NCBI RefSeq assembly: GCF_013752535.1
Contig: NZ_CP058348.1
Coordinates: 3,038,001-3,102,000, forward strand
Origin: Bdellovibrio sp. KM01
GTDB lineage: Bacteria > Bdellovibrionota > Bdellovibrionia > Bdellovibrionales > Bdellovibrionaceae
Direction of reading: 5' to 3'
Length of the DNA: 64,000 nt
Shown: piece after piece, positions 30,070 through 45,421 of the stretch
How positions within the stretch are numbered: position 1 is the stretch's first letter
Layout of the letters: the number at the start of each line of letters is the position of its first letter
Translations under genes and position numbers: made by a program
Notes under the pieces: model-generated
Told to the model about the DNA's origin: nothing
Databases searched by the model: none
What the model saw: only the letters and a program-made list of their open reading frames with translations

Positions 30070-30180
30070 GCTCAGCTCCTAAAAGGTGAGGTTGTTATAA
30101 TTCTGAATTTTGCCGTAAAATATTTTTAGCACTTAAACTTTCCACCAGCATGGCAATCCGTCGTACCTGTATAAAAACAT

Positions 30181-32355
30181 CTAGAACTGTTTGCCCAACA
30201 TGAAATAACAACTCCACGTTTTATTATCCCCATAGGCTGCCGCCAGATACATCGGCCCCAGAATACTGTCGTACGCTAGGTATCCCGTTCCCGACATATG
30301 CCACTCATCCGCAATTTTTTTGTCAAAGTAGTTAAAGACACGCCCGGTTTCCAGCGCCGCCCCCCAATAACTTCCCGACAAAAAAGGCATGCGCCGATAG
30401 TACTGAACGGATCCATAGGCAAATTGATCCCCTATCAACTCTTGATAACGATAACTGGAAAGATTCAAAAAACCTCCCAGCCAACTGACATCTGCGAGCA
30501 CACCATTATCGCCAGTGGAAGTTTGTCCTTTCAGTGTGAATTGAAAAACCCCTTTGCCCGCGGTCATAGCGCCGCGGAAGTTCAAGCCATACAATCCATA
30601 ATTGTCGATGTCCTCAGAGGCGCCGATTGAATAGTATCCATAAAGATCCAAATAAGCCCCGGTTGAAGGAAAGAAATAATTATCAAGCTGATCATAAAAA
30701 AAGTTGAAGCGAAGGCCATAGTCATTGGTACGTGAATTGGGAAGAATAGACGAACCAATATTTCTTGAAGCACTGTACTCATTGAAAGCTGGACCAAATC
30801 GGAACTCTCCAATTTCAGATCCGACACCCACGTCAGCCCCGAATGAGATTTTAGAATACTTGTACTTTGCAACTTCGTCGCCTTCTTGCCACAAAGCCAA
30901 AGGAATTCGGTAATATCGGAAATAGGGAGCGACAAAGCCATTCCCACCCGCCGTTGTGGGTTGATAGAACTCGGTATAGAACATCGAGGAATTACCCATT
31001 TGCAGAATGCTCTTCCATTCGGCTCCTAGGCTATTCACCCACGTTCTGCGGTACATAGCTGATAAATTCCATGGATAAGAACTTTCGAAATCAGTTCCCA
31101 GACTTAAACCGAAGTTCAAATAATTAGGTCCCCAGTTTTTTTGCACCGGTAAAACCAACAAATCCTGGCCCGCGCCGCTGTCAAACAGTTCGTAATCAAG
31201 CTGACTGAAATCCCCGGTCGCATAAAGCTGAGTCAACTGATCATGAAATTTGTCAATGTTGAGATTTACACCCGTGGGAACTTTAAGCTCGTCCTTCAGA
31301 GTAGCAGCATTGACCCAACCACTGTCGGCAACAGTGACTTTTTGAATAGGCTTGGGTTTTAACTTTTTGCTGATGCGATTTGTGGCCCAAGCAGAGTATT
31401 CTTTCTCTGATACCGAGTATCGACGCAAAGAGGGCAACGCTTTCATTGCAGCCACTCTTCCAACTTCGATTAATTTATCACTGTGTTCAAAGTCCATGGA
31501 ACCCAAGGAGTCGAACTGAGGAGCGATAAAAACATCTTTGTCTTTTAATCCCGCCACCTGAGGTCGCACATTTTGAATCATCATCAAACGCGTGTATTGA
31601 TCCATCACCGAGAAAATTCCCGTGATTTCCCCTTGCGATAAGGGGGCAGCCCCAACATCAATTGCGATGACAACATCGGCGCACATGTTCCTTACGACAT
31701 CCACAGGAAGATTTCGAACCAGTCCCCCATCGGCCAAAATATGTCCTTTAGAAGGCACAGACGGAAATATTCCTGGTACGGCCATACTGGCGCGAAGGGC
31801 GGTGACCAAATCTCCATCCTTCATGATCACCATTTCCCCTGTCGCCAGATCCGTTGCGATGGCGCGATAGGGAATGGGTAGACTATCAAAGTTCGCGACA
31901 GTTCCACCGTAAGTAAGATTGCGAAGGAAGTATTCGATCTCTTGTGTACTGATGGCCGCAAGAGGAAGTTTTAATTGGCCACCATCAGCAAGTCCGACTT
32001 CAACACCCAACATTGAAAGTTTATCGTCTTGTTTACGACGGAATGGATAGGCCTGCCTTGGTGCTTTTGCCAAAAACATATTTCCCCAATTGGCTTCGCT
32101 GATTTGTTTGCGCATTTCCTCGGGAGTTGCGCCCACAGCATAGGAAGCACCAACAAGGGAACCAATGCTGGTCCCTGCGATGCAATCTACAGGAATTCTG
32201 TTTTCCTCCAGAACTTTGATGATACCGACGTGTGCAATACCACGAGCCCCGCCACCACCAAGAACCAAGCCAATCTTAGGTCTTCGACTTTCGGCAGACC
32301 ATGAGTTAACGGCAAAGATCAAAGTCATCAGGCCTAGCACATAGAATTTTCTCAT
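30181..32355 (-). CDS. Patatin-like phospholipase with POTRA and beta-barrel (type Vd autotransporter-like)
   Basis: The 724-residue product has a signal peptide (about 1-20), then a patatin domain (25-320). The oxyanion loop GGGGARG (33-39), nucleophile S63 in GTSIG and partner D209 in DGG are all present, a Ser-Asp dyad for lipid acyl hydrolysis. A POTRA-like domain (about 335-405) is followed by a C-terminal Omp85-type 16-strand-like barrel that ends in Phe. This is the architecture of PlpD of Pseudomonas, a type Vd protein whose phospholipase crosses the outer membrane. In a predator it could attack prey membranes, but that is inference. The gene stands alone. Confidence 0.93.
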   Translation of the reverse strand: MRKFYVLGLMTLIFAVNSWSAESRRPKIGLVLGGGGARGIAHVGIIKVLEENRIPVDCIAGTSIGSLVGASYAVGATPEEMRKQISEANWGNMFLAKAPRQAYPFRRKQDDKLSMLGVEVGLADGGQLKLPLAAISTQEIEYFLRNLTYGGTVANFDSLPIPYRAIATDLATGEMVIMKDGDLVTALRASMAVPGIFPSVPSKGHILADGGLVRNLPVDVVRNMCADVVIAIDVGAAPLSQGEITGIFSVMDQYTRLMMIQNVRPQVAGLKDKDVFIAPQFDSLGSMDFEHSDKLIEVGRVAAMKALPSLRRYSVSEKEYSAWATNRISKKLKPKPIQKVTVADSGWVNAATLKDELKVPTGVNLNIDKFHDQLTQLYATGDFSQLDYELFDSGAGQDLLVLPVQKNWGPNYLNFGLSLGTDFESSYPWNLSAMYRRTWVNSLGAEWKSILQMGNSSMFYTEFYQPTTAGGNGFVAPYFRYYRIPLALWQEGDEVAKYKYSKISFGADVGVGSEIGEFRFGPAFNEYSASRNIGSSILPNSRTNDYGLRFNFFYDQLDNYFFPSTGAYLDLYGYYSIGASEDIDNYGLYGLNFRGAMTAGKGVFQFTLKGQTSTGDNGVLADVSWLGGFLNLSSYRYQELIGDQFAYGSVQYYRRMPFLSGSYWGAALETGRVFNYFDKKIADEWHMSGTGYLAYDSILGPMYLAAAYGDNKTWSCYFMLGKQF

Positions 32356-32444
32356 GTTACAAAGGTTGACACCAGAAAACGGTTTTCTCTGCAGAATTCT
32401 AATTCGTCTGCGAACATACAGACGCCATTGAATTGAGAGGTCTC

Positions 32445-33911
32445 ATGTTTCTTCGTCTTAAATTTTGCCTCGGCGTGCTCTTAATTTTTATTCTTTCACA
32501 AAAAGTTTTCGCAGCTCCCTCTACTGACAAAGCCAATGAGAAAACAACCTTTTCAATGGTGATATCCGGCATAGACCAGGTGCTGCAAGATTTGGGTAAC
32601 GACAAAGTCTTTAATCCACAAACTTGTCCCACGTATATTAACAAAATAACGGACTGGCTTTTCTATCTTCCCGCAGATCAGCTTGTACCCCACAATCCAC
32701 AAGAAATTGCATTTTTGAAAACTAACGGCGACTCCGTCATCCGAAAGATATTTCTTTTGCGTCTGAAGTTGCATGAACGACTTAAAGATTTTGACAAAGC
32801 TAACAACCTTACCGAAGCATGCGTATTAAAAATTCGCGAGGGTCTGCAATACGCCCGCTTCACCAATGAATACATTACCGAGTGGATTGTGCATAACAAG
32901 GTCGTTGCCTTTGAAGAAGCCCCGATCCTTGCTGGATCATTTCCTTTTGTTCTGAAAGATCCCTCGCTGGACAAAATCAATCTGATACCCGGAGATGTGC
33001 TTTTAATTCGCGGCAAAAGTTTTGTTTCTGCGATGATCGCACGAATCGGCGACGAAGAAGGTAATTTCTCTCATCTGGCAATTGTCGGTCAGGATGATAA
33101 GGGCGGGCTTCAAGTCGTCGAATCCCTGATTCAAGAGGGCGTTGTTGTAACACCCCTAGAAAAATGGCGAAACGCGCAGGATGCCCGCGTGGCCCTTTTC
33201 AGATTGCCGGATCAGAATCTGGCCGAAAAAGCGGCCCGTCTGGTTTATGAATGGGGTCTAACTCATGCTGAATATGATTTCGCAATGGATGACAGCCGCT
33301 ATGATCGAGCCTTTTGCTCGGAAGTTGTTCGCTATGCTTTTGACAAAGCTTCGGATGGAAAACTGATCGTTCCCAAATATCGCAGCCATGTCAGCAAATT
33401 CAAAGACGGACCTTATCCAAAATCCCTGGGAGTCACTCAAGCAACGTTGTTTGCACCCTATGACATCGAAGTCGATCCTCGCTTTCAGTATTTGGCTGAG
33501 GGAACTTTTTACCCGCTGCTGCGACAAGTACGAATTCAAGATTCAATTTTGCAAAGCATCTATGAATGGATGATCAAAAAGGACTACACGTTCTATGAGC
33601 CGTGGTGGCTAGGTACGGAAGCGACTTTAGGAAAAGGGCTTCGCTTCCTGGGTTTTATGAAAGACCAGATGCCAACCTATATGCCTAAGGATACCATAAA
33701 AACAATTCTCCTCTTTGAAGGCGTTTCTGATTCTTTGGAAAAAAATCTTTTTGATAAAGAGAAGGCGTTTTACGAAAAACGAGGCTACCCGCCGTCCTTT
33801 CAAGACATGATGCTCGCGAATGAACAAAAAAGAAAAGAGGACTGCGCCCTTTATGAAAAGGGCAAAAAGTCGGAATTTCATTCTTTTTTTAGAGGCAAGG
33901 GCTGCAATTAA
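32445..33911 (+). CDS. Secreted YiiX-like permuted papain-fold hydrolase
   Basis: The longest frame begins with TTG at 32433, but its first codons contain the GAGAGG ribosome site of the ATG at 32445, which starts a clear signal peptide (FILSQKVFA). The 488-residue protein has a C-terminal YiiX/NlpC-P60-type domain from about residue 180, with GDVLLIRGKSFVS, H210 in FSHLAIV and nucleophile C291 in RAFCSEVVRYAF. The permuted order (His before Cys) is that of the YiiX family, amidases or lipases of lipid or peptide substrates. The N-terminal 170 residues are helical and unrecognised. It is divergent from the patatin gene, so both could share a control region. Confidence 0.85.
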   Translation: MFLRLKFCLGVLLIFILSQKVFAAPSTDKANEKTTFSMVISGIDQVLQDLGNDKVFNPQTCPTYINKITDWLFYLPADQLVPHNPQEIAFLKTNGDSVIRKIFLLRLKLHERLKDFDKANNLTEACVLKIREGLQYARFTNEYITEWIVHNKVVAFEEAPILAGSFPFVLKDPSLDKINLIPGDVLLIRGKSFVSAMIARIGDEEGNFSHLAIVGQDDKGGLQVVESLIQEGVVVTPLEKWRNAQDARVALFRLPDQNLAEKAARLVYEWGLTHAEYDFAMDDSRYDRAFCSEVVRYAFDKASDGKLIVPKYRSHVSKFKDGPYPKSLGVTQATLFAPYDIEVDPRFQYLAEGTFYPLLRQVRIQDSILQSIYEWMIKKDYTFYEPWWLGTEATLGKGLRFLGFMKDQMPTYMPKDTIKTILLFEGVSDSLEKNLFDKEKAFYEKRGYPPSFQDMMLANEQKRKEDCALYEKGKKSEFHSFFRGKGCN

Positions 33912-34014
33912 TGCCAGCAGAGTTTACGCCCCATGCTAAATGGATTCATTTTAATCCAAGACCATTTGACCCTAGGCCCCCTATTTGAAAGAACTCTGCC
34001 TACAAGGAGCACCC

Positions 34015-34440
34015 ATGAAATTCATCGCTTTTCTAACTGCATTCTTTTCTTTAATGACAGTATCCCACGCCGCAATCGTAACTATTGAAGGTTTCAGAAA
34101 TACTAAAGGCTTTGCCGCTGTCAGCGTTTTTCACGAAAGGGAACAACGTGCATTCCCTGGTGATGCCGAAAAAGCAATCAAAACACTTTATGTTCCTGTT
34201 CCGAAAAATTCAAAATTGGAATTCACTCTGGACAACATGCCCGCTGGAAAGTACGCCGTGGCAATTCTTCATGACGAAGATGGCAATAAGAAATTGAACA
34301 CCGTTTTGGGTTACCCACGCGAAGGTTTTGGATTCTCTAACAACCCAACAATCTTGGTCGGTGCACCGGCATTTTCAAAATGTGCGGTCGAGCTTACTGA
34401 AGATGCCGCTATTAAAATCAAAATGAAGTATTTCTACTAA
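34015..34440 (+). CDS. DUF2141 secreted protein
   Basis: The ATG at 34015 has AAGGAG upstream and opens a signal peptide (about 1-19), giving 141 residues. The family signature is the segment DEDGNKKLNTVLGYPREGFG followed by FSNNP, near residues 85-110. DUF2141 proteins are small exported beta-sandwich proteins of unknown role. The gene is single, between a YiiX-like gene and an alpha/beta hydrolase gene. A hairpin follows at 34456. Confidence 0.88.
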   Translation: MKFIAFLTAFFSLMTVSHAAIVTIEGFRNTKGFAAVSVFHEREQRAFPGDAEKAIKTLYVPVPKNSKLEFTLDNMPAGKYAVAILHDEDGNKKLNTVLGYPREGFGFSNNPTILVGAPAFSKCAVELTEDAAIKIKMKYFY

Positions 34441-34455
34441 TTCTTATTGCGTTCT

Positions 34456-34486
34456 CTGGGGATCAAATTTGCCATGCGATCCCCAG
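34456..34486 (+). terminator. Hairpin after the DUF2141 gene
   Basis: A 9 bp perfect stem CTGGGGATC / GATCCCCAG with a 13-base loop starts 15 bp after the stop codon. No T run follows, so it may be an mRNA 3'-end stabiliser instead of an intrinsic terminator. Confidence 0.5.
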
Positions 34487-34550
34487 CGACTTAGTCCTGC
34501 ACACGTAAATTTCCATTGTCCAATCTCAAGAATAAAGTTTCAATCTACGG

Positions 34551-35348
34551 ATGTCGTATGAAACTAAGATCATCAAATTAAAAGGCCAGCGCACACTTCT
34601 GGCCTGCTATTCCCTTGCTTCCCGCACCTCCCATAAATGGGTGGTATTTTTACCAGAGTCGGGATCTGAATTTCGTCACGGCGATCGTCAAGAGCTTGTC
34701 AGTCTTATTGGCGCTCACATGTCCAAAAAGTATAATTTCTTGGTGATCAACAAACCCGGTGTTGAAGCTGATCATGTCGATAAGAAAGTTTTTGAAAAAT
34801 CCTTTCGTCAGGAAAAACGCATTCAAGACGCTCTTCAAACCCTCAGGGAAGTTATTCCACCTAAAGATAAGATTCATTTAATTGGATACTCCGAAGGGGC
34901 CTACAACACTCCCGTCGTTGCCAGTAAAGACAAACGAATCGTTTCCATCGCAATGATCGGTGGAGGCACCCGAGGCTGGCTTAAGGAGGAACTTAGCAAT
35001 GCGAGTCCTAAAGAAAAACCTGCCTATGAGCGCGCCATTAAAACAATCTATAAAAAACCAAAATCCAAAAACAAATGGAATGGATTTTCTTATGCCACTT
35101 GGTATTCATATCGGAGTGACAACACCTTAAGAGCACTTAAAGGTTTAAGTATTCCCGCCGTCGCCATTCTGGGAGCCCGTGATAAAGTCATCGATTTAAA
35201 ATCTGCCATCGTGGACCTGGTTTTGGTCAGTGAGCGAAAACCTATTCAGGTGCATATCTTTGGAGATTGCGGACATCACTTCACCAAACATTGGAAACCT
35301 GTGAGTCGCGTCCTGAGTCGATTCCTGTCTGAAATAGAGAAAAAATAA
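34551..35348 (+). CDS. Alpha/beta hydrolase (serine nucleophile), cytoplasmic
   Basis: The 265-residue product has no signal peptide. The nucleophile elbow GYSEG places the serine at S114. ILGARDKVID supplies a likely acidic residue and FGDCGHHFTKHW the catalytic histidine. N-terminal KWVVFLPESGSEFRHGDR holds the oxyanion region. The fold resembles dienelactone-hydrolase or esterase-like enzymes, but no specific family was recognised. The ribosome site is weak. It ends at a terminator shared with the convergent lipoprotein gene. Confidence 0.78.
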   Translation: MSYETKIIKLKGQRTLLACYSLASRTSHKWVVFLPESGSEFRHGDRQELVSLIGAHMSKKYNFLVINKPGVEADHVDKKVFEKSFRQEKRIQDALQTLREVIPPKDKIHLIGYSEGAYNTPVVASKDKRIVSIAMIGGGTRGWLKEELSNASPKEKPAYERAIKTIYKKPKSKNKWNGFSYATWYSYRSDNTLRALKGLSIPAVAILGARDKVIDLKSAIVDLVLVSERKPIQVHIFGDCGHHFTKHWKPVSRVLSRFLSEIEKK

Positions 35349-35350
35349 AA

Positions 35351-35382
35351 AAACCCACAATCTTTCGGATCGTGGGTTTCCA
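35351..35382. terminator. Bidirectional terminator between convergent genes
   Basis: A 12 bp stem with one mismatch (AAACCCACAATC / GATCGTGGGTTT) and a TTTCG loop lies just after the alpha/beta hydrolase stop, flanked by an A run on one side and T residues on the other. Confidence 0.8.
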
Positions 35383-35404
35383 ACTTATCTTCTATCGAAA
35401 CCGA

Positions 35405-36478
35405 TTATTTTTTCGGTTCAACACCGACATTTCTAAGATGTTGAGGATGTTCGTAATACATCATGAAATCTTCCGCATCACGTGGAGCTGTGAATGCAAG
35501 CTCCGTCACCAGATGGCTTCCCGCCTCTGGAGCCGAACCATCAAATACATCCAGGAACAAACCAATACGGTTCGTCATCTCTGCATCACTCGCCGTTGGA
35601 GCTCTTCCATTTGCGGGAACCAAGATGTAAATTTTCGGAACAGGTTCAACGACAACGTAATCGCCTTCGATGTTTCCAGATTTAGGATTAGTAAAGTATT
35701 TGGCTTTCGTCGTATTCGTCTTAATGAACTTAGCTTTCTTTTGACCTTTTTGAGTCGAAAGCTCCAGCACGCCATCTTTAAAGCGGCCGTACTCTGATAA
35801 ATAGGAACCTTCAAGATCATTCCAGTTTCCGCGCCAGCTGGAAGCCAAGTGCCCTTTTTTATAAACCAACGTTGCGAGTTCCAACTGACTGAAACTTAAA
35901 GCGTCGTTAATGCTTGAAAAAACGCCGCCTTTTCCGGTATCCACAACATCAGGAAATACGATTTGCCCATCAGGATCTCCAGCGATCGTGGCACCCGCCA
36001 AAGGATTGCTGATGCCATTTTTCAGATTTAGCATCAATGCCACTTTCGGATCAACCACCAGGTTTCCATCGCGCGCTTCCACGTTGTGCATTTCATAAGT
36101 TCCAGCGTTCACGCCAGGAACGAATTTATAGACAGAAATTCTGGTCGCGATCTTATCCAGATAACCCACCACTTTATTCAAGATCGGAGCTTTTTGGCTG
36201 GCCATATAAGGTAGGCCCATGTTCATCAACTGATCGTATTCCAAAAGAACGCCATAATAAGTGTCGCCTTCAGTCTGAGAGCGCTCCATATAAAGGCGCA
36301 TCGCCGGACGTCTGATTCCCGTCGTACGTTTGGAAAATAGTCCTTCACCAAGATAAGTTCCCGTCAGATCCGCAGCCGAAGGCGTACGGGCTGCCGTCAC
36401 TTCCGATTGAGGCTCCCGTGGCGTGCTTGCACACGACGCCATAACAACTGTCAAAGCGAGTAGTAAAATCCTTTTCAA
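35405..36478 (-). CDS. Lipoprotein of unknown function
   Basis: The true start is probably the TTG at 36478: GGAGAGGAG lies six bases upstream, and in the longer frame from 36502 this ribosome site would be translated. The 357-residue product has a lipoprotein signal (VMASC, C16). The mature part is beta-rich, with a GTYLGEGLFSKRTTG start and repeated short strands, reminiscent of lipocalin-like or jelly-roll folds but not assigned. The gene follows the catalase-like gene by 46 bp, so it may serve the same pathway. Localisation to the outer membrane is likely since Ala follows the acylated Cys. Confidence 0.75.
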   Translation of the reverse strand: MKRILLLALTVVMASCASTPREPQSEVTAARTPSAADLTGTYLGEGLFSKRTTGIRRPAMRLYMERSQTEGDTYYGVLLEYDQLMNMGLPYMASQKAPILNKVVGYLDKIATRISVYKFVPGVNAGTYEMHNVEARDGNLVVDPKVALMLNLKNGISNPLAGATIAGDPDGQIVFPDVVDTGKGGVFSSINDALSFSQLELATLVYKKGHLASSWRGNWNDLEGSYLSEYGRFKDGVLELSTQKGQKKAKFIKTNTTKAKYFTNPKSGNIEGDYVVVEPVPKIYILVPANGRAPTASDAEMTNRIGLFLDVFDGSAPEAGSHLVTELAFTAPRDAEDFMMYYEHPQHLRNVGVEPKK

Positions 36479-36524
36479 TCGAAACTCCTCTCCGTAGAGC
36501 AAAATATATAAACGTTTTAAAATC

Positions 36525-37517
36525 TTATCTATGTTTCAGCTGATGTCTGAAAAAGATCCCCTCATCCCCGAAAGATGAAGAGATAAACTCAGAAGTAGTC
36601 ACGATATCCGCGACCAATTCAGAATCCTGCAGCAGGACTTTCACATTTTCGGCCGAATAGTCTGCATACTTAAAGTCTTTATACTTTTCCGACACCGCAC
36701 GAATCTGATAGATCACCGTGTTCACCGGGATCGTTACAAAATCTTTTCTGACGTCATGAGGGTCAGAAGAAAACGCTAATTTTTCTGAAGGAACAAAGAA
36801 AACCTGGCGAGGCGAAGTCGCTACAGCAACACTACGCCCCTTCTGGTCCAGTTCAGCGAATTCACGGATCGCCAACTCCTCTGGATAAGGAGAGGCATCA
36901 AGAAAGATTTTATGAACCAGTTTTTGGCCAATGGAAGTTCCGATAGGTACAATATTGGACATCGAATACTTAAAGAAGTTAAAGTCCTGGCCCTGGCCAT
37001 CTAAAGAAACCAATGCTGATACATTTGTACTGAAAGTTCCATCACGTAATAGCTTAAGAGCCAGCCCCGGAGCCACCGGTCTTCCCGATTTCACCGCCGA
37101 AGTGAGCGAAAGTCTCAGCAGACCACAATCCGCTCCTTGAAAAAGTCCTGAATACTTATTTTGATGAGGAACGATCTTAACTTTTGTGATGCTCGCGCGG
37201 GCATGAAGAAATTTTGTCCAGCCTTTTGGAGCAAAATCATCAAAGCGCGATCCCTTAATTGTAACTTCCTGTCGTCCCATTCCTATAATTTGAGTCAGCC
37301 CGAGAGCTTTATATTCCGGAAGTTGCTTATAAGCGCTCTCCTGAATCAATTTCCACAAAACGTCCTGCTTTTCACAGGCACTGAGAGCTTTGTAGTTCGC
37401 TGGCGTCGAGGCTGGGAATCGCGGAGACGATTTAGAATCTGAATCGTAGATGAAGTAGGCGAATGAAGCGACAACCGCAAGCGCACAGACCGCTCCATAA
37501 ATAACTTTTTTCTTCAT
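36525..37517 (-). CDS. Catalase-superfamily / allene-oxide-synthase-like protein, membrane-anchored
   Basis: The ATG at 37517 has GGAGG upstream and gives 330 residues; the longer frame adds 11 residues without a site. A hydrophobic N-terminal segment (about 5-23) is a signal anchor. The rest resembles the catalase fold as found in cAOS-like proteins: FLHARASITKVKIVP with H105 as candidate distal histidine, YSGLFQGADCGLLRLSLTSA, and PGLALKLLRDGTFSTNVSA then FNFFKY. I see no clear proximal RxxxY haem-ligand motif, so haem binding is uncertain. Relatives act on fatty-acid hydroperoxides. It is divergent from an animal-type haem peroxidase gene, which suggests that the two work on lipid peroxides. 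Confidence 0.6.
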   Translation of the reverse strand: MKKKVIYGAVCALAVVASFAYFIYDSDSKSSPRFPASTPANYKALSACEKQDVLWKLIQESAYKQLPEYKALGLTQIIGMGRQEVTIKGSRFDDFAPKGWTKFLHARASITKVKIVPHQNKYSGLFQGADCGLLRLSLTSAVKSGRPVAPGLALKLLRDGTFSTNVSALVSLDGQGQDFNFFKYSMSNIVPIGTSIGQKLVHKIFLDASPYPEELAIREFAELDQKGRSVAVATSPRQVFFVPSEKLAFSSDPHDVRKDFVTIPVNTVIYQIRAVSEKYKDFKYADYSAENVKVLLQDSELVADIVTTSEFISSSFGDEGIFFRHQLKHR

Positions 37518-37719
37518 CACGCCTCCAGCTGATACTGTAGCAGACATCAATTTCTGTTTGCACAGACTATCTGAAAATCACGGACCCTTTTTTTGAGCAC
37601 TAATAGTAACCGCTGATCCTATGTCTGGACCTCGCAGAATCTTGTGCAGCACTAATATTTTCGCTTATCCTTAAACGGTCTGCGTTTTAAACAAGTTAAA
37701 AGTTAATGAAGGAGTTTGC

Positions 37720-39792
37720 GTGAATCAAAAAGGTATTCTGTCCGTTCTGATAAGTTCAAGTATGGTTTTATCGTCTTGCACCCACGGTCCCGTTAATCCC
37801 GGTGCAAAATATATTCACGACACTTCTGTTCCCGCAATGACCGATGAAGAACGTCGCGCACCAAGCTCATCTCTCGCCGACACTCCTTGGACAACGTGGT
37901 CCGAGAAAAATGAAATCTCTGGCTTGCTGGTTCTAAAGAAAGTCCGTGACAGCCTCTTGGCTGGCAATCTTCATGACCCGCATGTAGGTTACTTTGGTTA
38001 CGCTCCAATAGATTGTTCTAAAACGAACACGAACTTCAGATCTGCTGATGGCTCATGTACGGATCTTAAAGACGGTCACATTGGTGCCGCAGGTGTCGCC
38101 TTCGGTCGCAACGTTTCTCCAGACTTTATCGACAAAGATGCTCCCAATAAAATCATGGTTCCAAATCCGGCCTTGGTTTCTAAGGAGTTCTTCACACGTG
38201 ACGAATTCAAACCCGTTCCTTTCTTGAATATGATCGCTGGTGTTTGGATCCAGTTCATGAATCACGACTGGCTGACACATGGTCCGAACAAGGTAGAAAA
38301 TCCATATCGCGTGAAAGGTCCAGATGGCGTTGAGCACATTGTCGACAGAACGAAAGACAATTCAAGCACTCACGCTCAATACAAAGATGGCTTTGATAAA
38401 GTTTCCGCGAATGACGTCTCTCACTGGTGGGATGCCTCTCAAATTTACGGCAGCAACAAAGAAGATCAACTTAAACTGCGCACAGGTTATTTCGGTAAAA
38501 TGAAAACAGAAACGGTTAACGGCCGCGAACTTTTGCCAAGAGATAACTCTTTGAATCCTGCAAACAATCGCCAGAACAATGGTTACGAAGCGACAGGGTT
38601 CCGTGACAACTGGTGGGTGGGTTTGAGCATGCTCCACACTCTTTTCGTCAAAGAGCACAATGCTATCGCCAACAGATTGATGGCCAAACATGTGACTTAC
38701 GATGCAAAAACAAAAATGTACACTTGGAAAAACGGTTCAGATGTTCGCCAAATGAATCAACAGCAAATGGACGAGCAGGTTTTCCAAACGGCACGTTTGA
38801 TCAACTCCGCAGTTCTTGCAAAAATTCATACAGTAGAGTGGACTCCAGCTATCCTGCCAAATCCGGTTTTGCGCAGAGCTATGTATTCGAATTGGTACGG
38901 CCTTGCAAATCCGGAAACTTGGTCACGCGTTGTTAAACTTATTCCGGGTATGAATAAAGCAGACATCTTTAAAGGTGTTAAAGAAAGCTATGTTGTTGGC
39001 GGCATCGTTGGTGGTAAAGCGAATAACTACGGCGTTCCATTCAGCATCACGGAAGAGTTCACTTCAGTTTATCGTCTGCACTCTTTGTTGCCAGAAAACT
39101 TGGAATTCAGAACTTTAGCGCAACCTAAAAAAGTTGAAGCTGTGCCATTCCCAAATACTCGTAACCATAACAGCTATGGCATCATGGCTTCCCATGACTT
39201 GAAAGATTTGTATTACTCATTCGGCGTACAGCACCCAGGTCAATTGGTTCTAAACAACTTCCCGAAATTCATGCAAGAACTGGAAATTCCAGGCCACCAA
39301 AAAATGGACTTGGCTCTTGTCGATGTGATGCGTGACCGCGAGCGTGGCGTTCCACGTTACAACCAGTTCCGAAGAGGCATTGGTTTGAAACCAATCAAAA
39401 AGTACACAGACTTCTTCCCTGCTGGCAAACCATTGGATGCAAGACAACTGGCGATTCGCGACAAGTTCTATAGCGTCTACGGTCGCGATGCGAATGGTAA
39501 CGACAACGTTGAGTTGATTGACCTTCTTGTCGGAACTTGCGCTGAGGAAGTTCGTCCAGCCCAATTTGGCTTCGGTGAGACGATGTTCCAAATCTTTATC
39601 TTGATGGCTTCACGTCGTTTGATGGCCGATAGATTCTTTACGGATGATTACAATGCTGCTCACTATACGACGACTGGTATGGAATGGATTGATGACGAAG
39701 GCACGCTTGCAAAAGTCATTGGTCGCCACATGCCAGAGCTAAAAGGTAAAATGAAAGGTTTGACATCAGCTTTCGAACCTTGGCACAACTAA
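37720..39792 (+). CDS. Animal-type haem peroxidase (PGHS/dioxygenase-like) lipoprotein
   Basis: This 690-residue protein starts at GTG 37720 with AAGGAG five to six bases upstream. A lipoprotein signal (VLSSC, C20) is followed by the animal haem peroxidase fold. The distal His-Asp pair is in IQFMNHDWLTHG (H182, D183), the conserved helix in GLSMLHTLFVKEHNAIANRL, and the proximal region in TSVYRLHSLLPENLEFR. Family members include myeloperoxidase, prostaglandin synthase and fatty-acid dioxygenases. The conserved helix reads more like the dioxygenase branch, but the tyrosine that would distinguish this was not mapped. Divergent with a catalase-like gene about 200 bp away. Confidence 0.9.
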   Translation: MNQKGILSVLISSSMVLSSCTHGPVNPGAKYIHDTSVPAMTDEERRAPSSSLADTPWTTWSEKNEISGLLVLKKVRDSLLAGNLHDPHVGYFGYAPIDCSKTNTNFRSADGSCTDLKDGHIGAAGVAFGRNVSPDFIDKDAPNKIMVPNPALVSKEFFTRDEFKPVPFLNMIAGVWIQFMNHDWLTHGPNKVENPYRVKGPDGVEHIVDRTKDNSSTHAQYKDGFDKVSANDVSHWWDASQIYGSNKEDQLKLRTGYFGKMKTETVNGRELLPRDNSLNPANNRQNNGYEATGFRDNWWVGLSMLHTLFVKEHNAIANRLMAKHVTYDAKTKMYTWKNGSDVRQMNQQQMDEQVFQTARLINSAVLAKIHTVEWTPAILPNPVLRRAMYSNWYGLANPETWSRVVKLIPGMNKADIFKGVKESYVVGGIVGGKANNYGVPFSITEEFTSVYRLHSLLPENLEFRTLAQPKKVEAVPFPNTRNHNSYGIMASHDLKDLYYSFGVQHPGQLVLNNFPKFMQELEIPGHQKMDLALVDVMRDRERGVPRYNQFRRGIGLKPIKKYTDFFPAGKPLDARQLAIRDKFYSVYGRDANGNDNVELIDLLVGTCAEEVRPAQFGFGETMFQIFILMASRRLMADRFFTDDYNAAHYTTTGMEWIDDEGTLAKVIGRHMPELKGKMKGLTSAFEPWHN

Positions 39793-39816
39793 AAACCTGA
39801 CGCCTTAAAAACCAAA

Positions 39817-39847
39817 AAGGAGAAGATGAAAGTCTTCTCCTTTTTTT
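39817..39847 (+). terminator. Intrinsic terminator of the haem peroxidase gene
   Basis: A perfect 10 bp stem AAGGAGAAGA / TCTTCTCCTT with a six-base loop is followed by a run of T. Confidence 0.9.
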
Positions 39848-39867
39848 ATGCTCATTTGAATCCAATG

Positions 39868-40638
39868 TTAGAGCTGAGCGCTGCTAAATAGAGGCATTTC
39901 CAGAACTTCGCCTTTAAATTCAACATGCTTCAATTTATCGCGGAAAATTTCCACCGATACATTCTGAGTCAACGGCGGATAAAAATCATCCCAGTGATGA
40001 GGAATGACGACCTTCGGGCGAATAATTGACGTCTGCTTGGCAGCGATTTCCTGAATGCGGCTGTGGCCTTGCAATGGCGCCAGCAAGTAATCAATTTCCA
40101 ATCCCCGGTACATTTCCAGCTCACGCTTATCCGCACCCGCAGAGCTCATGAACAAGAACTTCTTGCCACCACTTTCAAAATAATAGGTCTGTACCAAACC
40201 TTTAGGATACCCTAAGCCCAGACCACAAATATGCATGCAATCTTTTACACTGCACTGTTTGATGGTCGATAACACCAGCGGAATATCAAATTTCACATGC
40301 GCACTTTTAAAAGCTCTCATGTTGAAGGATTTAAATAGTGTTTCTTTGTTGTCAGCACTGGTCAGACGGCCACTTGGAACTCCACGCATTTTCAAAATCT
40401 GCCCTGTCAATCCCGGTGCATAAACTTGGGCGTCAGAGTTCTTAACTATTTCAGGAATATCAAAAGTGTGATCAAAGTGACCGTGACCCACAAAAATAGC
40501 CTGCGTATTGGCAAAGGACTTAGCTGCCGTGAAGGGAGCAGGCTCTCCTTTTCCACGGGAAAGGAAGGGATCGAAAGCAATTTCACCCTGTTTGTCTTTC
40601 ACAATAAAACCTGCCGTACCCAGCCAAGTAAATTCCAT
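39868..40638 (-). CDS. Metallo-beta-lactamase-fold hydrolase
   Basis: The 256-residue cytoplasmic protein has the metal site HxHxDH at H52-G-H54-F-D56-H57 (VGHGHFDHTFDI). A further His comes in VVIPHHWDDFYPP. The start MEFTWLGTAGFIVKD resembles the UlaG/YtnP-like group of MBL hydrolases, which includes lactonases and phosphodiesterases. The substrate is unknown. No operon partner: the haem peroxidase gene converges and the next gene has its own terminator. The ribosome site before the ATG is weak. Confidence 0.88.
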   Translation of the reverse strand: MEFTWLGTAGFIVKDKQGEIAFDPFLSRGKGEPAPFTAAKSFANTQAIFVGHGHFDHTFDIPEIVKNSDAQVYAPGLTGQILKMRGVPSGRLTSADNKETLFKSFNMRAFKSAHVKFDIPLVLSTIKQCSVKDCMHICGLGLGYPKGLVQTYYFESGGKKFLFMSSAGADKRELEMYRGLEIDYLLAPLQGHSRIQEIAAKQTSIIRPKVVIPHHWDDFYPPLTQNVSVEIFRDKLKHVEFKGEVLEMPLFSSAQL

Positions 40639-40705
40639 AAAGCGACCTTAACAAACTAACCCTCGAAGCACAAGAACGACCGAGTTCGAGGCGCAACGTA
40701 AACAA

Positions 40706-40733
40706 AAAGATCCCCGCTTGTGGCAGGGATCTT
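40706..40733 (-). terminator. Terminator of the alpha/beta hydrolase gene at 40758
   Basis: On the minus strand an 8 bp stem AAGATCCC / GGGATCTT with an 11-base loop is followed by T residues, 24 bp after the hydrolase stop codon. Confidence 0.8.
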
Positions 40734-40757
40734 CTTAAGAGTAAAAGCTCAATCAAT

Positions 40758-41678
40758 TTAGTTCGCAGTTACGCGATTTGGTTCTTTAAGGAAATTATCC
40801 AAAGCTTCGATCGTGGCTTTGGGACTTTCTTCCATCAACCAGTGACCCACATTTTTCAAAGTCACGCCTTGGGCATGAGGAGCAACGATTTTCATTGTTG
40901 CAGCCAGTGGCATTCCCATTGCTTTTTCACCACCGATCGAAAGAACTGGCATAGTCAGTTGAGTTTTAGAAAGTTCTTTATTGTCTTTCGCATCTTGCGG
41001 AAACGCTTTAAACCACTCCATCGCTGCTCTCATGTGACCTGGAGCTGCATATTGTTTTGCGAAATAGTTCTTTTTAGCATCCGGGAAAGTTTTAGGGTCT
41101 GCAGAGAACGTTGTCCAAAGATGATCCAGGTATGCTTTCTCACGTCCTTTGACCAAGGCTTCAGCATCTTTACCATAAAAACGGAAGTGCCAGATGTCGG
41201 GACTGTTATAAATGTCGTCGCCGGGTCCCACACCGGGCAAGAACGCATCCATCACCACCAATTTAGTCGTCATTTGCGGGTACTTTGCAGCGAAGGCATA
41301 AGCCACCATCAATCCAATATCATGACCTACGATATCTGCCTTCGCGATACCATAGTGATCCAATAGAACCTTCACATCATCCGCCATCGCGGCTTTGGTG
41401 TAGCCAGATTCTGGTGCTTCACTTAAACCGCCCCCGCGCAGATCCGGAACAATGAAAGTGTATTTCGAAGAAAGAGATTTCATCACCGGCTCCCACATCA
41501 ATGCGGACTCACCCATACCGTGGAGCAAAACCACTGGAGAACCTGCCCCGCCTTTATAAACATTCATTTTAAAACCGTTGATTTCAATTTTCTCCTGTTT
41601 GAATCCTTTCGGGATATCGATTGCATGGGCTGCCAAACCGGAAAGAAGAAGAGCTGTGATCAATAATAACTTTTTCAT
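40758..41678 (-). CDS. Exported alpha/beta hydrolase with Asp nucleophile (epoxide hydrolase/dehalogenase-like)
   Basis: The 306-residue product has a signal peptide (LLLSGLAAHA, about 1-19). HGMGESALMW forms the oxyanion loop. The nucleophile elbow reads GHDIG with D120 in place of Ser, the mark of epoxide hydrolases and haloalkane or fluoroacetate dehalogenases. The catalytic His lies in NVGHWLMEESP near the C-terminus. An exported member of this group may process epoxides outside the cytoplasm. AGGAA lies before the ATG. It is divergent from a LysR regulator gene, which probably controls it. Confidence 0.88.
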   Translation of the reverse strand: MKKLLLITALLLSGLAAHAIDIPKGFKQEKIEINGFKMNVYKGGAGSPVVLLHGMGESALMWEPVMKSLSSKYTFIVPDLRGGGLSEAPESGYTKAAMADDVKVLLDHYGIAKADIVGHDIGLMVAYAFAAKYPQMTTKLVVMDAFLPGVGPGDDIYNSPDIWHFRFYGKDAEALVKGREKAYLDHLWTTFSADPKTFPDAKKNYFAKQYAAPGHMRAAMEWFKAFPQDAKDNKELSKTQLTMPVLSIGGEKAMGMPLAATMKIVAPHAQGVTLKNVGHWLMEESPKATIEALDNFLKEPNRVTAN

Positions 41679-41794
41679 TCGAGATTCCTTTTTTGTATCT
41701 GAAACCGTTTGTACGCTTCAGAAGTTAATTGCTTCGTTGAATATCAATCTACCAACTATTTTCCATTTGAGTATCCCACAAGATTGGTACAGAC

Positions 41795-41812
41795 TGTCCG
41801 CTATGACGGACA
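41795..41812. promoter_or_regulatory. Inverted repeat over the LysR gene start
   Basis: TGTCCG (41795-41800) and CGGACA (41807-41812) are exact reverse complements around the ATG of the LysR gene. A bound protein could block translation or transcription start, consistent with autoregulation. The repeat is short and could be chance. Confidence 0.45.
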
Positions 41813-42705
41813 ATAAGGATATCATTGACCTGACAAATGAAGGGCTTGTTTTTTATCACGTAGCCCTCCTACATGGCTTCCGAGCAGCAGCAACACACCT
41901 GGGGCTTTCCAAATCGGTGGTCAGCAGTAAGGTGTCTTCGTTGGAAAAGCGCGTGGGGCGTAAACTTCTGTTCCGCTCCACCCGTGACGTCAGCCTGACT
42001 CCCGAGGGAGAAGTCTATTTTGAATCCTGCCAGGCTCTTTTTGCGGCTTCACAAAAGCTTCAGCTTAAAGAGACCTCCCTTAAAGACGCCTTGACCGGAT
42101 CCTTTACTATTTCTGCGCCGTCGGATTTTATGCAAATCTGTCTGATTCCCGCACTTCAACGCCTGCAAGCATTGCATCCCAAACTGCGTTTAAACCTGAT
42201 TTCTTCTGATCAATTGATGAACCTGGAAAAAGAACGCATCAATCTGGCAATCCGCGTGGGCGCAGACGGTGCCGGCCATTTATATCGCAGTCCCTTTTTC
42301 AATGCGGAATTCGGTTTCTACTGCAAAAGCAGCTTAGCTCCCCCCAAAAAATCCGAAAAAGAAATTATAGAGTGGCTTCAACAAGAGGGTGTCTTTGTCT
42401 TCAGACCTTCCCGGGAAAAATCGTTTCAGCTGAACAAGCAAAGCTTCGAAGTCCGCGTTCAAAACAAATTCCAGGTTCACGACGTGCTCTCCCTGAAAAG
42501 CCTGGTTGCATCCGGCGTGGGAGTGGGAATCCTTCCCCATTTTGCCGTCAAAGCCGAACTCGCCACTGGCGAATTGGCGCAACTACTGCCTGCGGCACAA
42601 TTTAAGGCGGTCAGTTTTACATTTCTATCCGGAGCCAAACGACAGGAAGACAATCGCCTCAACACGATTATTGAATTCCTCCAACAGGAAGCACGTCAGT
42701 TTTAA
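41803..42705 (+). CDS. LysR-family transcriptional regulator
   Basis: The frame opens at 41578 but the first 75 codons overlap the divergent hydrolase gene; the ATG at 41803 starts the regulator, giving 300 residues. An N-terminal winged helix-turn-helix (about 15-75: FRAAATHLGLSKSVVSSKVSSLEKRVG) is followed by a LysR substrate-binding domain (about 95-295) with the usual SGVGVGILPHFAV. Divergent placement relative to the Asp-nucleophile hydrolase suggests that it controls that gene. The ribosome site is poor, which fits an overlapping operator. It ends 2 bp from the convergent YkgJ-type gene. Confidence 0.93.
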   Translation: MTDNKDIIDLTNEGLVFYHVALLHGFRAAATHLGLSKSVVSSKVSSLEKRVGRKLLFRSTRDVSLTPEGEVYFESCQALFAASQKLQLKETSLKDALTGSFTISAPSDFMQICLIPALQRLQALHPKLRLNLISSDQLMNLEKERINLAIRVGADGAGHLYRSPFFNAEFGFYCKSSLAPPKKSEKEIIEWLQQEGVFVFRPSREKSFQLNKQSFEVRVQNKFQVHDVLSLKSLVASGVGVGILPHFAVKAELATGELAQLLPAAQFKAVSFTFLSGAKRQEDNRLNTIIEFLQQEARQF

Positions 42706-42707
42706 AA

Positions 42708-43385
42708 TTATAGAATTTCTTGTGGAAGGCGCGTCGGCAGTGGCAACGCGGGTTCCTCAATTTGGCGGCAATCCAGCTCACGTTGAAGCATTTTAGGCAG
42801 TGAAGCAAAGTCATTGTCCGTCTGGTTCGCTGCTGCACTCATAATAATTTCCGCCATGGGCATTACTTTCGGAACAGGCTTCCCACCCCATTTTTGACAT
42901 TCAATGACCGGCGACACGACAGAATGTTTGCGACAGACCGAAGGACGATTTTCATAATTTCGACAGGCATTATCGGGCCCCAAGAAAACACAGCGATTGC
43001 TTACGACCCATCCCTGCGCCCAAGCGGAATCCAAACGTTCGCGCAAAGAAAGTTCACGTAGGCGAGCGACATCCAGCTCCAATCCATCCTTTAAAGAATT
43101 CGCCAAAATAATAGCGTCATCACGAGTGATCTCCACTTCCAGATGGCAGCAAGCTCCGCAACCTTTTTGGCACGTCGTTTTGATATGCGAACTTTGCTGT
43201 TCTTGTTCATTAATCAGAGCATGCACTTTGCGACCGCGCTCTTCACCCGGGGCAAGATCCGACAGCATCTCCCCATAATGCACCAGCAGACGCTCCACTT
43301 CCTCTTCGAAACTGGCGAATTCATCGGCAGCCAAAAGGTCTTTATAATTGGAAAGGAGCGAGCGGAGTTGGGCCGTTTTGATCAT
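42708..43385 (-). CDS. YkgJ-family cysteine-cluster protein
   Basis: The 225-residue product contains the YkgJ/UPF0153 pattern of metal-binding cysteines: CQKGCGACCHLE (near residues 94-105), then CVFLGPDNACRNYENRPSVC and RKHSVVSPVIEC. These proteins probably bind zinc or an iron-sulfur cluster; the function is unknown. A helical N-terminal part of about 85 residues precedes the cluster. The start ATG is followed by IKTAQLRSLL. No operon partner is present. Confidence 0.88.
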   Translation of the reverse strand: MIKTAQLRSLLSNYKDLLAADEFASFEEEVERLLVHYGEMLSDLAPGEERGRKVHALINEQEQQSSHIKTTCQKGCGACCHLEVEITRDDAIILANSLKDGLELDVARLRELSLRERLDSAWAQGWVVSNRCVFLGPDNACRNYENRPSVCRKHSVVSPVIECQKWGGKPVPKVMPMAEIIMSAAANQTDNDFASLPKMLQRELDCRQIEEPALPLPTRLPQEIL

Positions 43386-43588
43386 GATCTAAGGGTATCA
43401 CGCCCCCTCAGAAGCGAAATTCACATTTGGTAATTAGGACTAAAGTGAGGATACCTGCACTCAACTGGGCAAAACGCACCGCGGCATTCCGATGAATTCC
43501 AACTGAAGACTCATAAATTTCGGTCCCATTCGCATACCGTTAAGTAATTACGCGGCTGACGATCTTGCTTACAGATTGTCAGCTTATC

Positions 43589-43705
43589 TGTTATACCTGG
43601 ACGGCGGCGCCGGGGACCTCCCCGCACCGAAGGACAGCGAGTCGTTGACTCGCCCCGATATTGTTTTACCAGATAACGTATTGATGTACCCGGGAAGAAA
43701 GAAAA
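43589..43705 (+). promoter_or_regulatory. Promoter and structured leader of the oligopeptide ABC ATPase gene
   Basis: An extended -10 (TG-T-TATACC, 43589-43597) would start a leader of about 100 nt. It is much more GC-rich than its surroundings and holds two compact hairpins: CGGGG-ACCT-CCCCG (43611-43624) and GCGAGTC-GTT-GACTCGC (43637-43653). A GGGAAGAAAG ribosome site precedes the ATG. The rest of the gap, 43386-43588, shows nothing I can name. An attenuator or RNA switch is possible but unproven. Confidence 0.45.
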
Positions 43706-45421
43706 ATGAACAATAACAATGTCATTGAAGTTAAAAACCTTGCTGTCGAATTCAAAACTGACGACGGTATCGTTCAAGCTGTAAAAACCATCTCCTTCAA
43801 TATTCCAAAAGGCAAAACTGTGGGCCTGGTTGGGGAATCTGGTTCTGGTAAAAGTATCACGTCTTTGGCGATCATGCGTTTGATCGGCCACCCTGGTAAA
43901 GTCACTAACGGCGAAATTTTCTATAACGGCGAAGACCTTCTGAAGCTTTCTGAAGAAAAAATGCGCGAGATCCGTGGCGCAAAAATCTCCATGATTTTCC
44001 AAGAACCGATGACTTCTTTGAATCCGGTTCTAACAGTTGCAGACCAAATCACTGAAACTTTGATGCTTCACCAAGGATTGACGAAAGAACAAGCTTTGGT
44101 ACGTGGTTTGGAATTGTTGAAACTTGTGGGTATCCCTTCTCCTGAAGAGCGCCTGCACTTCTACCCTCACAAATTCTCTGGCGGTCAACGTCAACGTATC
44201 ATGATCGCAATGGCGATCGCTTGTAACCCAGATGTTTTGATCTGTGACGAGCCAACAACGGCTTTGGACGTAACTATTCAAAAACAAATCTTGGATCTAT
44301 TGGCAGACATCCAACAACGCACTCACATGAGCATGCTTTTCATTACGCATGACTTGGGCGTGGTAGCTGATATCGCTGACGAAGTGATCGTTATGAACAA
44401 GGGTGAAGTTGTTGAAACTAACAACTCTAAAAAAATCTTCACGCACCCTCAGCATCCTTACACGAAAGGTTTGCTGGCTTGCCGCCCTTCTTTGTCCAGT
44501 CACTTGGCGCGTTTGCCAGTTCTGAGCGATTTCATGGGACCAAACGGCGAAGAGCTTCCAGGACCAAATCTTGAAACTTTGCCTCAAGTGAAAGAAACTC
44601 TGGCTGACACAAACTCCCCGATCATCCTGCAAGTAAACGACTTGCAAACGCACTTTGCACACACGGGTGGCCTCTTGGGTCGCGTGCAAGGTTATACAAA
44701 AGCGGTTGATGGTGTGAGCTTTGCCGTTAAAAAAGGTCGCACACTGGGCCTTGTGGGTGAATCAGGGTGCGGTAAAACAACTTTGGGTCGTACGTTGATG
44801 CGTCTGGTGGATTCCACTGCAGGACAAATCTTGTTCGAAGGACAAGACATCACGAAATTGACTGCAAGACAGATGCTTCCGATTCGCAAAAGAATGCAGA
44901 TCGTATTCCAAGATCCGTTTGCCTCCTTGAATCCTCGTATGACGATTGGCGCGATCTTGATGGAACCAATGCAAATCCATCAGTTGGGTGATAACGACAA
45001 CCAACGCAAAGAGATGGCTGCTGTCATGATGAAAAAAGTAGGCTTGACCCCAGGAGTGATGAACCGCTACCCGCATGAGTTCTCTGGCGGTCAAAGACAA
45101 CGTATCAGCATCGCCCGTGCGTTGATGGTTAAACCTGAATTCATCGTATGCGACGAATCCGTTTCTGCTTTGGACGTATCTATTCAAGCTCAAATCTTGA
45201 ACTTGCTATTGGATCTTCAAGACGAAATGAATTTAACGTACATCTTTATCTCCCATGACCTGTCAGTTGTGAAATTCATCTCTGACGACGTGGCAGTAAT
45301 GTACGGTGGTAAGATCGTGGAGATGAACACGGCTGAAAACATCTACTCGAATCCACAACACGCCTACACTCAAAAACTTTTGAGTGCGATTCCCAAAGGC
45401 GTTCCTAAAGAGCTTATGTAA
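43706..45421 (+). CDS. Fused double ATPase of an oligopeptide/dipeptide ABC importer
   Basis: The 571-residue protein is a tandem of two DppD/DppF-type nucleotide-binding domains. The first has Walker A GLVGESGSGKS (40-50), Q-loop FQEPMTSLNPVL and signature FSGGQRQRI. The second, from about residue 310, has GLVGESGCGKTT and a matching QDPFASLNPR and FSGGQRQRISIARAL. Each ends with the oligopeptide-type C-terminal extension (HPQHPYTKGLLACRPS, NPQHAYTQKLLSAIP). Such YejF/GsiA-like fusions drive peptide or glutathione uptake. No permease or binding-protein gene is adjacent, so partners are elsewhere. Confidence 0.95.
   Translation: MNNNNVIEVKNLAVEFKTDDGIVQAVKTISFNIPKGKTVGLVGESGSGKSITSLAIMRLIGHPGKVTNGEIFYNGEDLLKLSEEKMREIRGAKISMIFQEPMTSLNPVLTVADQITETLMLHQGLTKEQALVRGLELLKLVGIPSPEERLHFYPHKFSGGQRQRIMIAMAIACNPDVLICDEPTTALDVTIQKQILDLLADIQQRTHMSMLFITHDLGVVADIADEVIVMNKGEVVETNNSKKIFTHPQHPYTKGLLACRPSLSSHLARLPVLSDFMGPNGEELPGPNLETLPQVKETLADTNSPIILQVNDLQTHFAHTGGLLGRVQGYTKAVDGVSFAVKKGRTLGLVGESGCGKTTLGRTLMRLVDSTAGQILFEGQDITKLTARQMLPIRKRMQIVFQDPFASLNPRMTIGAILMEPMQIHQLGDNDNQRKEMAAVMMKKVGLTPGVMNRYPHEFSGGQRQRISIARALMVKPEFIVCDESVSALDVSIQAQILNLLLDLQDEMNLTYIFISHDLSVVKFISDDVAVMYGGKIVEMNTAENIYSNPQHAYTQKLLSAIPKGVPKELM

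Follow-up and report, generated by a model that had tools for sequence, protein, structure and literature searches.

A predicted exported fatty-acid alpha-dioxygenase and its genomic partners in Bdellovibrio sp. KM01

Introduction

What does a haem peroxidase do beside a divergently encoded, catalase-like protein in a predatory bacterium? The question is raised by a 64,000-nt stretch of Bdellovibrio sp. KM01 (hereafter the window; G000:C1:3038001-3102000, where G000 is its 3.96 Mb, single-contig source genome). A reading made from the sequence alone had proposed that an exported animal-type haem peroxidase and a membrane-anchored protein resembling catalase-related allene oxide synthase (cAOS) form an oxylipin system with the logic known from corals. 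Our analysis points to a different chemistry. The locus probably encodes an exported fatty-acid alpha-oxidation module that makes 2-hydroperoxy acids, in which a fatty-acid alpha-dioxygenase (alpha-DOX) is accompanied by the catalase-like protein (CATL) and a lipoprotein (LIP) that handle substrate or product.

Results

The peroxidase is a predicted fatty-acid alpha-dioxygenase

The three open reading frames (ORFs) at the center of this study were confirmed at the positions given to them in the sequence-only reading, with the lipoprotein gene on the same strand as CATL and at operon spacing from it:

35405 to 36478, minus strand: LIP, a predicted lipoprotein of 357 aa whose family has no name; ORF, 46 bp downstream of CATL
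36525 to 37517, minus strand: CATL, 330 aa, with an N-terminal hydrophobic segment and a distant catalase-like core (H105, R135, PGLALK); ORF and hhalign
37720 to 39792, plus strand: alpha-DOX, 690 aa, GTG start, predicted lipoprotein; PF03098, PDB matches and residues

The 690-aa protein carries the H182-D183 pair and matches PF03098 in Pfam (E 4e-96), which places it in the animal haem peroxidase superfamily as had been supposed. Its top PDB matches are the alpha-DOX of rice (290 bits, E 2e-85) and that of Arabidopsis (271 bits, E 2e-79), the organisms of both entries being given in PMC8720084 and PMC9305512, while lactoperoxidase (51 bits, E 6e-13) and COX-1 (at most 26 bits, E 2e-5) follow as weaker matches. 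As the similarity to alpha-DOX is far above that to COX-1 and lactoperoxidase, the COX and myeloperoxidase readings were rejected. A COX- or lipoxygenase-type dioxygenase with a polyunsaturated fatty acid (PUFA) hydroperoxide as product was likewise set aside, the sequence being of the alpha-DOX type.

Alignment to rice alpha-DOX assigns Y451 as the catalytic Tyr, H454 as the proximal His and H182 as the distal His, and places H370, T375 and R633 at the carboxylate site (rice His311, Thr316 and Arg559). We take Thr316 of the rice enzyme to be a carboxylate-binding residue. The catalytic Tyr of fatty-acid dioxygenases, which the sequence-only reading had proposed to look for, is thus present, and Y451, H454 and H182 are kept in 48 of 48 alpha-DOX homologues. 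At the carboxylate site, H370 is conserved in 47, T375 in 46 and R633 in 47 of the 48. The homologue in genome G192 has neither H370 nor T375, and CATL is absent from that genome; in G366 a Ser replaces the Thr, in a gene 1.2 kb from a contig end; and the sole homologue without R633 is a truncated ORF. The N-terminus of the 690-aa protein resembles a lipoprotein signal, with LSSC presumably serving as the lipobox. The roles of the distal His, catalytic Tyr and proximal His are described in PMC8720084 and PMC9305512, and carboxylate binding by His311 and Arg559 (rice numbering) is stated in the title of a reference in PMC8720084.

The closest bacterial relative tested on record is found at Calothrix sp. 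PCC 6303. Its counterpart in our set (L035) has Y358, H361 and H131, the positions reported for the biochemically proven CalDOX (PMC8720084), and its plasmid also carries a CATL gene, some 1.5 kb further downstream. We regard the 690-aa protein as very probably a fatty-acid alpha-DOX. Enzymes of this kind use a Tyr radical, with peroxide as initiator, to form a 2(R)-hydroperoxide that spontaneously yields the Cn-1 aldehyde (PMC9305512).

CATL and LIP largely share the distribution of alpha-DOX

The distribution of the three genes was counted in 368 genomes of the phylum. From 64 genomes with CATL we kept 38 places in 37 genomes (E 8e-63 or better), leaving aside 27 genomes with weaker matches and weak second copies. 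The alpha-DOX set comprises 39 of 40 genomes, without G273 (E 4e-10, partial) and the second fragments of G032 and G367, and the strong LIP set comprises 37 genomes, without the marginal G227 and G272.

CATL and alpha-DOX are both present in 35 genomes, CATL only in 2, alpha-DOX only in 4 and neither in 327 (Fisher p 5e-42, uncorrected for kinship); the proposed pairing of the two proteins is hence far above chance. They are adjacent in 29 of the 35 (21 divergent, 7 tandem and 1 convergent). Among the four genomes with alpha-DOX and no CATL, G038 and G262 carry a fused catalase-family domain, one has an alpha-DOX without the carboxylate residues, and in one the gene is at a contig edge. Among 59 relatives, the 7 genomes with a close CATL (at least 51% identity) are identical to the 7 with a close alpha-DOX (at least 61%), and the genes are always adjacent. 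Only 3 of 24 same-genus genomes, counting that of the window, have the module, which has therefore been gained or lost as a unit.

LIP gave no match in Pfam or PDB. It occurs in 39 of the 368 genomes, 37 of them strong, and of the latter 36 have a close CATL and 34 have alpha-DOX; it lies within 29 of the 38 close-CATL loci. As loci of the module itself went into the LIP profile, the linked cases are not independent, but seven genomes in which LIP is present yet unlinked are. In G027, LIP and alpha-DOX are fused in a protein of 929 aa, and the 3′ end of the fusion gene overlaps the start of CATL. This fusion and the distribution shared with CATL bear out the suggestion that the lipoprotein gene is part of the module.

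These comparisons establish, at the level of predicted proteins, an alpha-DOX with all known catalytic residues and two companions, CATL and LIP, that are inherited, lost and rearranged with it. It is highly likely that both are functional partners of the dioxygenase.

Catalase-family domains are fused to alpha-DOX in other bacteria

Catalase-related domains are joined to alpha-DOX in other genomes. The domain is C-terminal in G038 (1146 aa) and in G262 (982 aa, truncated where the contig stops), and N-terminal in ORFs of ~940-1040 aa on plasmids of Rhizobium phaseoli, Rhizobium CB3171, NXC24, R. jaguaris and Phyllobacterium and in a Nonomuraea record. PF00199 is above the cut-off in the fused domain of L038, L039 and L041 and below it (17.3 bits) in L030. 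In 33 proteins of this catalase family, which matches true catalases with E 2e-15, the haem residues Arg, Arg, Tyr and Arg are each present in 33 of 33 and the distal His in 31 of 33, and the Tyr-Arg spacing is 7, as in cAOS. We assume that cd08152 is the proper label for the family; it was assigned by no search. A y4iL-like catalase family cd08152 appears in PMC5103461.

In an alpha-DOX tree (FastTree, midpoint root) the N-terminal fusions form one clade with support 1.0, and G038 and G262 stand on two other branches. This placement on three branches suggests three fusion events in two domain orders. In G367 a catalase-family gene and CATL overlap by 4 bp on the same strand (L104:5343-7699, G367:C31), so that the two can share one unit.

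The neighbors of alpha-DOX and CATL elsewhere bear on the pathway. On the Streptomyces plasmid NZ_CP108251.1 (L036:1-7739), genes for benzoylformate decarboxylase, an FAD-linked oxidase, a P450 and an alpha/beta hydrolase precede alpha-DOX in what looks like a complete alpha-oxidation operon. The fused alpha-DOX of Phyllobacterium occurs with thiamine pyrophosphate (TPP) enzymes and patatin, and the predicted neighbors in both organisms fit further processing of 2-oxygenated acids. We infer a route from fatty acid through 2-hydroperoxy acid, 2-hydroxy acid and 2-oxo acid to the Cn-1 aldehyde, the last steps of which are not seen in the window.

In G032 a cytochrome P450 gene (PF00067, E 5e-21) was observed near CATL at L027:4363-5661 (G032:C58). 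Its GGGD..HRCPGE stretch recalls, in our view, the CYP152 fatty-acid peroxygenases.

CATL weakly resembles the distal side of catalase and ends before the proximal Tyr

The 330-aa protein has both the N-terminal hydrophobic stretch and the FLHARASI motif with H105 that were read from its sequence. Single-sequence and profile searches of Pfam, NCBIfam and PDB gave no usable match, and cytochrome c hits at E 0.35-1.5 are chance; PF00199 matched 0 of 44 CATL sequences, and no CATL relative was found in viral contigs. By hhalign, CATL matched the profile of the 33 catalase-family proteins with E 5e-5, probability 67% and score 43.3, the best of 60 shuffled controls reaching 29.4. The aligned part, residues 93-157, corresponds to the distal side of catalase (the RFS and RG-A-K segments). 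Against true catalases the first alignments gave no signal, and a wider, more careful alignment gave E 0.006.

Seven residues are invariant in the 59-sequence CATL set: H105, G124, R135, K155, R257, D318 and H325. The haem residues of cAOS are R64, H67, R102, N137, Y353 and R360 (PMC5617202). Judged by motif and the weak alignment, H105 and R135 are the equivalents of H67 and R102 (59 of 59 each), and the R64 position is Lys in 58 of 59. All 59 relatives end 2-28 residues past H325, where the Tyr helix would begin, and none has a segment corresponding to Tyr353/Arg360, as against Tyr and Arg in 33 of 33 of the fused-type family. CATL is therefore not a cAOS-type haem enzyme, and since it lacks this proximal ligand it was filed neither as cAOS nor as catalase. 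The proximal Tyr that the sequence-only reading had proposed to look for is, by sequence, missing from the whole family, and the likeness to catalase/cAOS is a weak one, seen by profile comparison over the core. We consider the catalase link a lead with moderate support from profile comparison, and it is unlikely that CATL binds haem in the usual manner.

Competing explanations for the pair

Several observations weigh against a partnership of CATL with alpha-DOX or against the catalase link. The two genes are unlinked in 6 of the 35 genomes with both, some of them on short draft contigs. G111 and G115 have CATL, LIP and the metallo-beta-lactamase-fold gene described below, and alpha-DOX was not found in them; the 27 genomes with distant CATL relatives only have alpha-DOX in none. 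The fused catalase domains prove the link to alpha-DOX for their own family, not for CATL itself, and the 4-bp overlap in G367 means that CATL is not simply a substitute for a catalase-family domain. As to the fold, the profile E-value of 5e-5 is modest, and in an earlier, weaker alignment against the catalase family (E 5e-4) 1 of 40 block shuffles was equally good, although reversed and unrelated profiles did not match its score. AlphaFold models of CATL, alone and with one relative, were unusable (predicted local distance difference test 34 and 31).

The absence of the proximal-Tyr segment in all CATL proteins, the Lys at the position of the haem-contacting Arg64 of cAOS, the strong one-to-one co-occurrence and the divergent transcription would all suit a CATL with no enzymatic role that assists the exported alpha-DOX in the periplasm as an accessory factor, concerned with haem insertion, folding or membrane docking and possibly a lipid-binding barrel. 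We hold this to be rather unlikely, because the strictly conserved H105, R135, R257, D318 and H325 have the look of a site for catalysis or binding, because in Calothrix CATL lacks an evident signal peptide and adjoins GMC oxidoreductase and patatin genes, and because distant relatives occur in those 27 genomes that have no alpha-DOX. That CATL acts enzymatically on the alpha-DOX product is a tentative proposal, to which we give somewhat less than an even chance. A bolder version seems unlikely: CATL would be the first catalase-derived barrel without a haem-ligand helix, a new kind of partner enzyme, either non-haem or with unusual ligation, to which the exported alpha-DOX would pass its 2-hydroperoxy acid, and the two together with LIP would form an undescribed bacterial oxylipin pathway used by predators on prey lipids.

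A defense against peroxide or halide, in which the peroxidase and a catalase-like scavenger shield the predator from oxidative stress, could appeal to the fact that both proteins belong to or resemble haem-peroxidase families. In addition, PF00199 catalase was not found in G000 or in G012, a module-bearing genome of the same genus. The search covered 59 genomes and found such a catalase in 22; G010 and G035, which carry the module, also have one. This explanation is very improbable, given that the 690-aa protein is much closer to plant alpha-DOX than to myelo- or lactoperoxidase, that the carboxylate-site residues are kept and that CATL has no catalase haem ligand. The coral-type pathway, in which the dioxygenase would supply PUFA hydroperoxides and CATL would turn them into allene oxides as in the coral AOS-lipoxygenase, can hardly be right. 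A catalase-related partner does stand beside a lipid dioxygenase, as in the coral fusions (PMC5617202), and catalase/alpha-DOX fusions exist; what stands of the original idea is a fatty-acid dioxygenase linked to a catalase-related partner by co-occurrence here and by fusion elsewhere. Its coral oxylipin chemistry does not, since alpha-DOX oxygenates C2 of saturated and unsaturated acids and converts ordinary fatty acids into 2(R)-hydroperoxides and Cn-1 aldehydes, rather than supplying an allene oxide synthase with PUFA hydroperoxides, and CATL has no equivalents of Y353 and R360 and a Lys for R64. The coral AOS reading was rejected on these two counts, the type of the dioxygenase and the missing proximal Tyr/Arg segment.

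In the alpha-oxidation module that we favor, the haem of alpha-DOX would, by analogy with its family, be oxidized by peroxide to generate a Tyr451 radical, which would take the alpha-hydrogen of a free fatty acid; addition of O2 would give the 2(R)-hydroperoxy acid, which would then either form the Cn-1 aldehyde by decarboxylation or undergo reduction to the 2-hydroxy acid. The signals and the genomic association would locate this reaction in the envelope, where LIP may bind or deliver lipid. CATL, a putative barrel of the catalase kind that lacks the usual proximal Tyr, would act next in handling the hydroperoxide or aldehyde, or would keep the dioxygenase active. The module may also play some part in predation or signaling.

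Other features of the locus

The remaining features around the three genes are as follows:

35349 to 35381, minus strand: terminator-like hairpin after LIP, weak
37518 to 37719, no strand: intergenic region of 202 bp from which CATL and alpha-DOX diverge, from coordinates; divergent promoters presumed
39814 to 39845, no strand: terminator-like hairpin flanked by runs of A and T, situated between the stop codons of alpha-DOX and MBL, weak
39868 to 40638, minus strand: MBL, a 256-aa metallo-beta-lactamase-fold hydrolase (UPF0173/UlaG-like; PF12706/PF13483), convergent with alpha-DOX

Both hairpins are weak evidence because the region holds 6 terminator-like structures against 5.4 expected from shuffles. 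A promoter and terminator scan, with counts near chance, reported no promoter-like site within 37518 to 37719, and an Rfam scan of 30000-45000 gave no match. Scanning the contigs of the genome returned a single locus. MBL has an HxHxDH core and lies within 20 of the 38 close-CATL loci. In L087, L090, L091, L092, L094, L096 and L103 a second MBL subfamily, ~20-25% identical, replaces the window type, and several of its members have hydrophobic, signal-like N-termini.

At G086:C5:164869-165724 a LIP fragment lies beside a CATL copy with in-frame stops, in a genome without alpha-DOX; this looks like decay of the module. A CATL relative (28% identity) was also seen on Pseudomonas veronii plasmids (L191:5923-6948 and L192) near an NAD(P)/FAD-dependent oxidoreductase and an OprD porin, and these plasmids are absent from the alpha-DOX matches.

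Discussion

The dioxygenase falls in an established family. It seems that bacteria possess a little-known version of their own of a lipid-oxidation pathway that is familiar chiefly from plants. As presented in the excerpts of PMC9305512 and PMC8720084, bacterial alpha-dioxygenases have been characterized from cyanobacteria only. Literature searches over titles and abstract openings, which do not establish absence in print, turned up no paper about a Bdellovibrio alpha-DOX or about fusions of alpha-DOX with catalase, and the unit that alpha-DOX forms with CATL and LIP was not met in them. The four-gene unit, the repeated fusions and the near-perfect shared distribution offer concrete partners to test for bacterial alpha-DOX and bring to light two protein families without annotation, CATL and LIP. 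They would also assign fatty-acid alpha-oxidation to the cell envelope in Bdellovibrio-like bacteria, and the catalase/alpha-DOX fusion enzymes may be ready-made for biocatalysis.

Four known systems invite comparison. With the coral catalase-related AOS or hydroperoxide lyase fused to 8R-lipoxygenase, the locus shares the logic of a dioxygenase and a catalase-related partner; the coral system uses a lipoxygenase and a PUFA hydroperoxide, whereas here there are a predicted alpha-DOX, a 2-hydroperoxide and a CATL without Y353/R360. In the y4iL-like catalase family fused to alpha-DOX in Rhizobium, Phyllobacterium, Nonomuraea, G038 and G262, a catalase-related partner is again tied to alpha-DOX, but that family has the haem residues with the proximal Tyr (33 of 33) and CATL does not have this Tyr. 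MBL matches the profiles of the UPF0173/UlaG-like hydrolases TM_1162 and UlaG and, more weakly, NAPE-PLD; its presence in only 20 of 38 loci sets it apart. The nearest likeness is to the alpha-DOX of plants (rice 4kvj/4kvk, Arabidopsis 4hhr) and to the cyanobacterial CalDOX, LepDOX and CsDOX, which resemble the 690-aa protein over its whole length and have the same catalytic and carboxylate residues. The phylum of the present enzyme is not among the five bacterial phyla given in the excerpt of PMC8720084, and the Bdellovibrio protein differs from these relatives in being, by prediction, exported as a lipoprotein and in its linkage to CATL, LIP and MBL.

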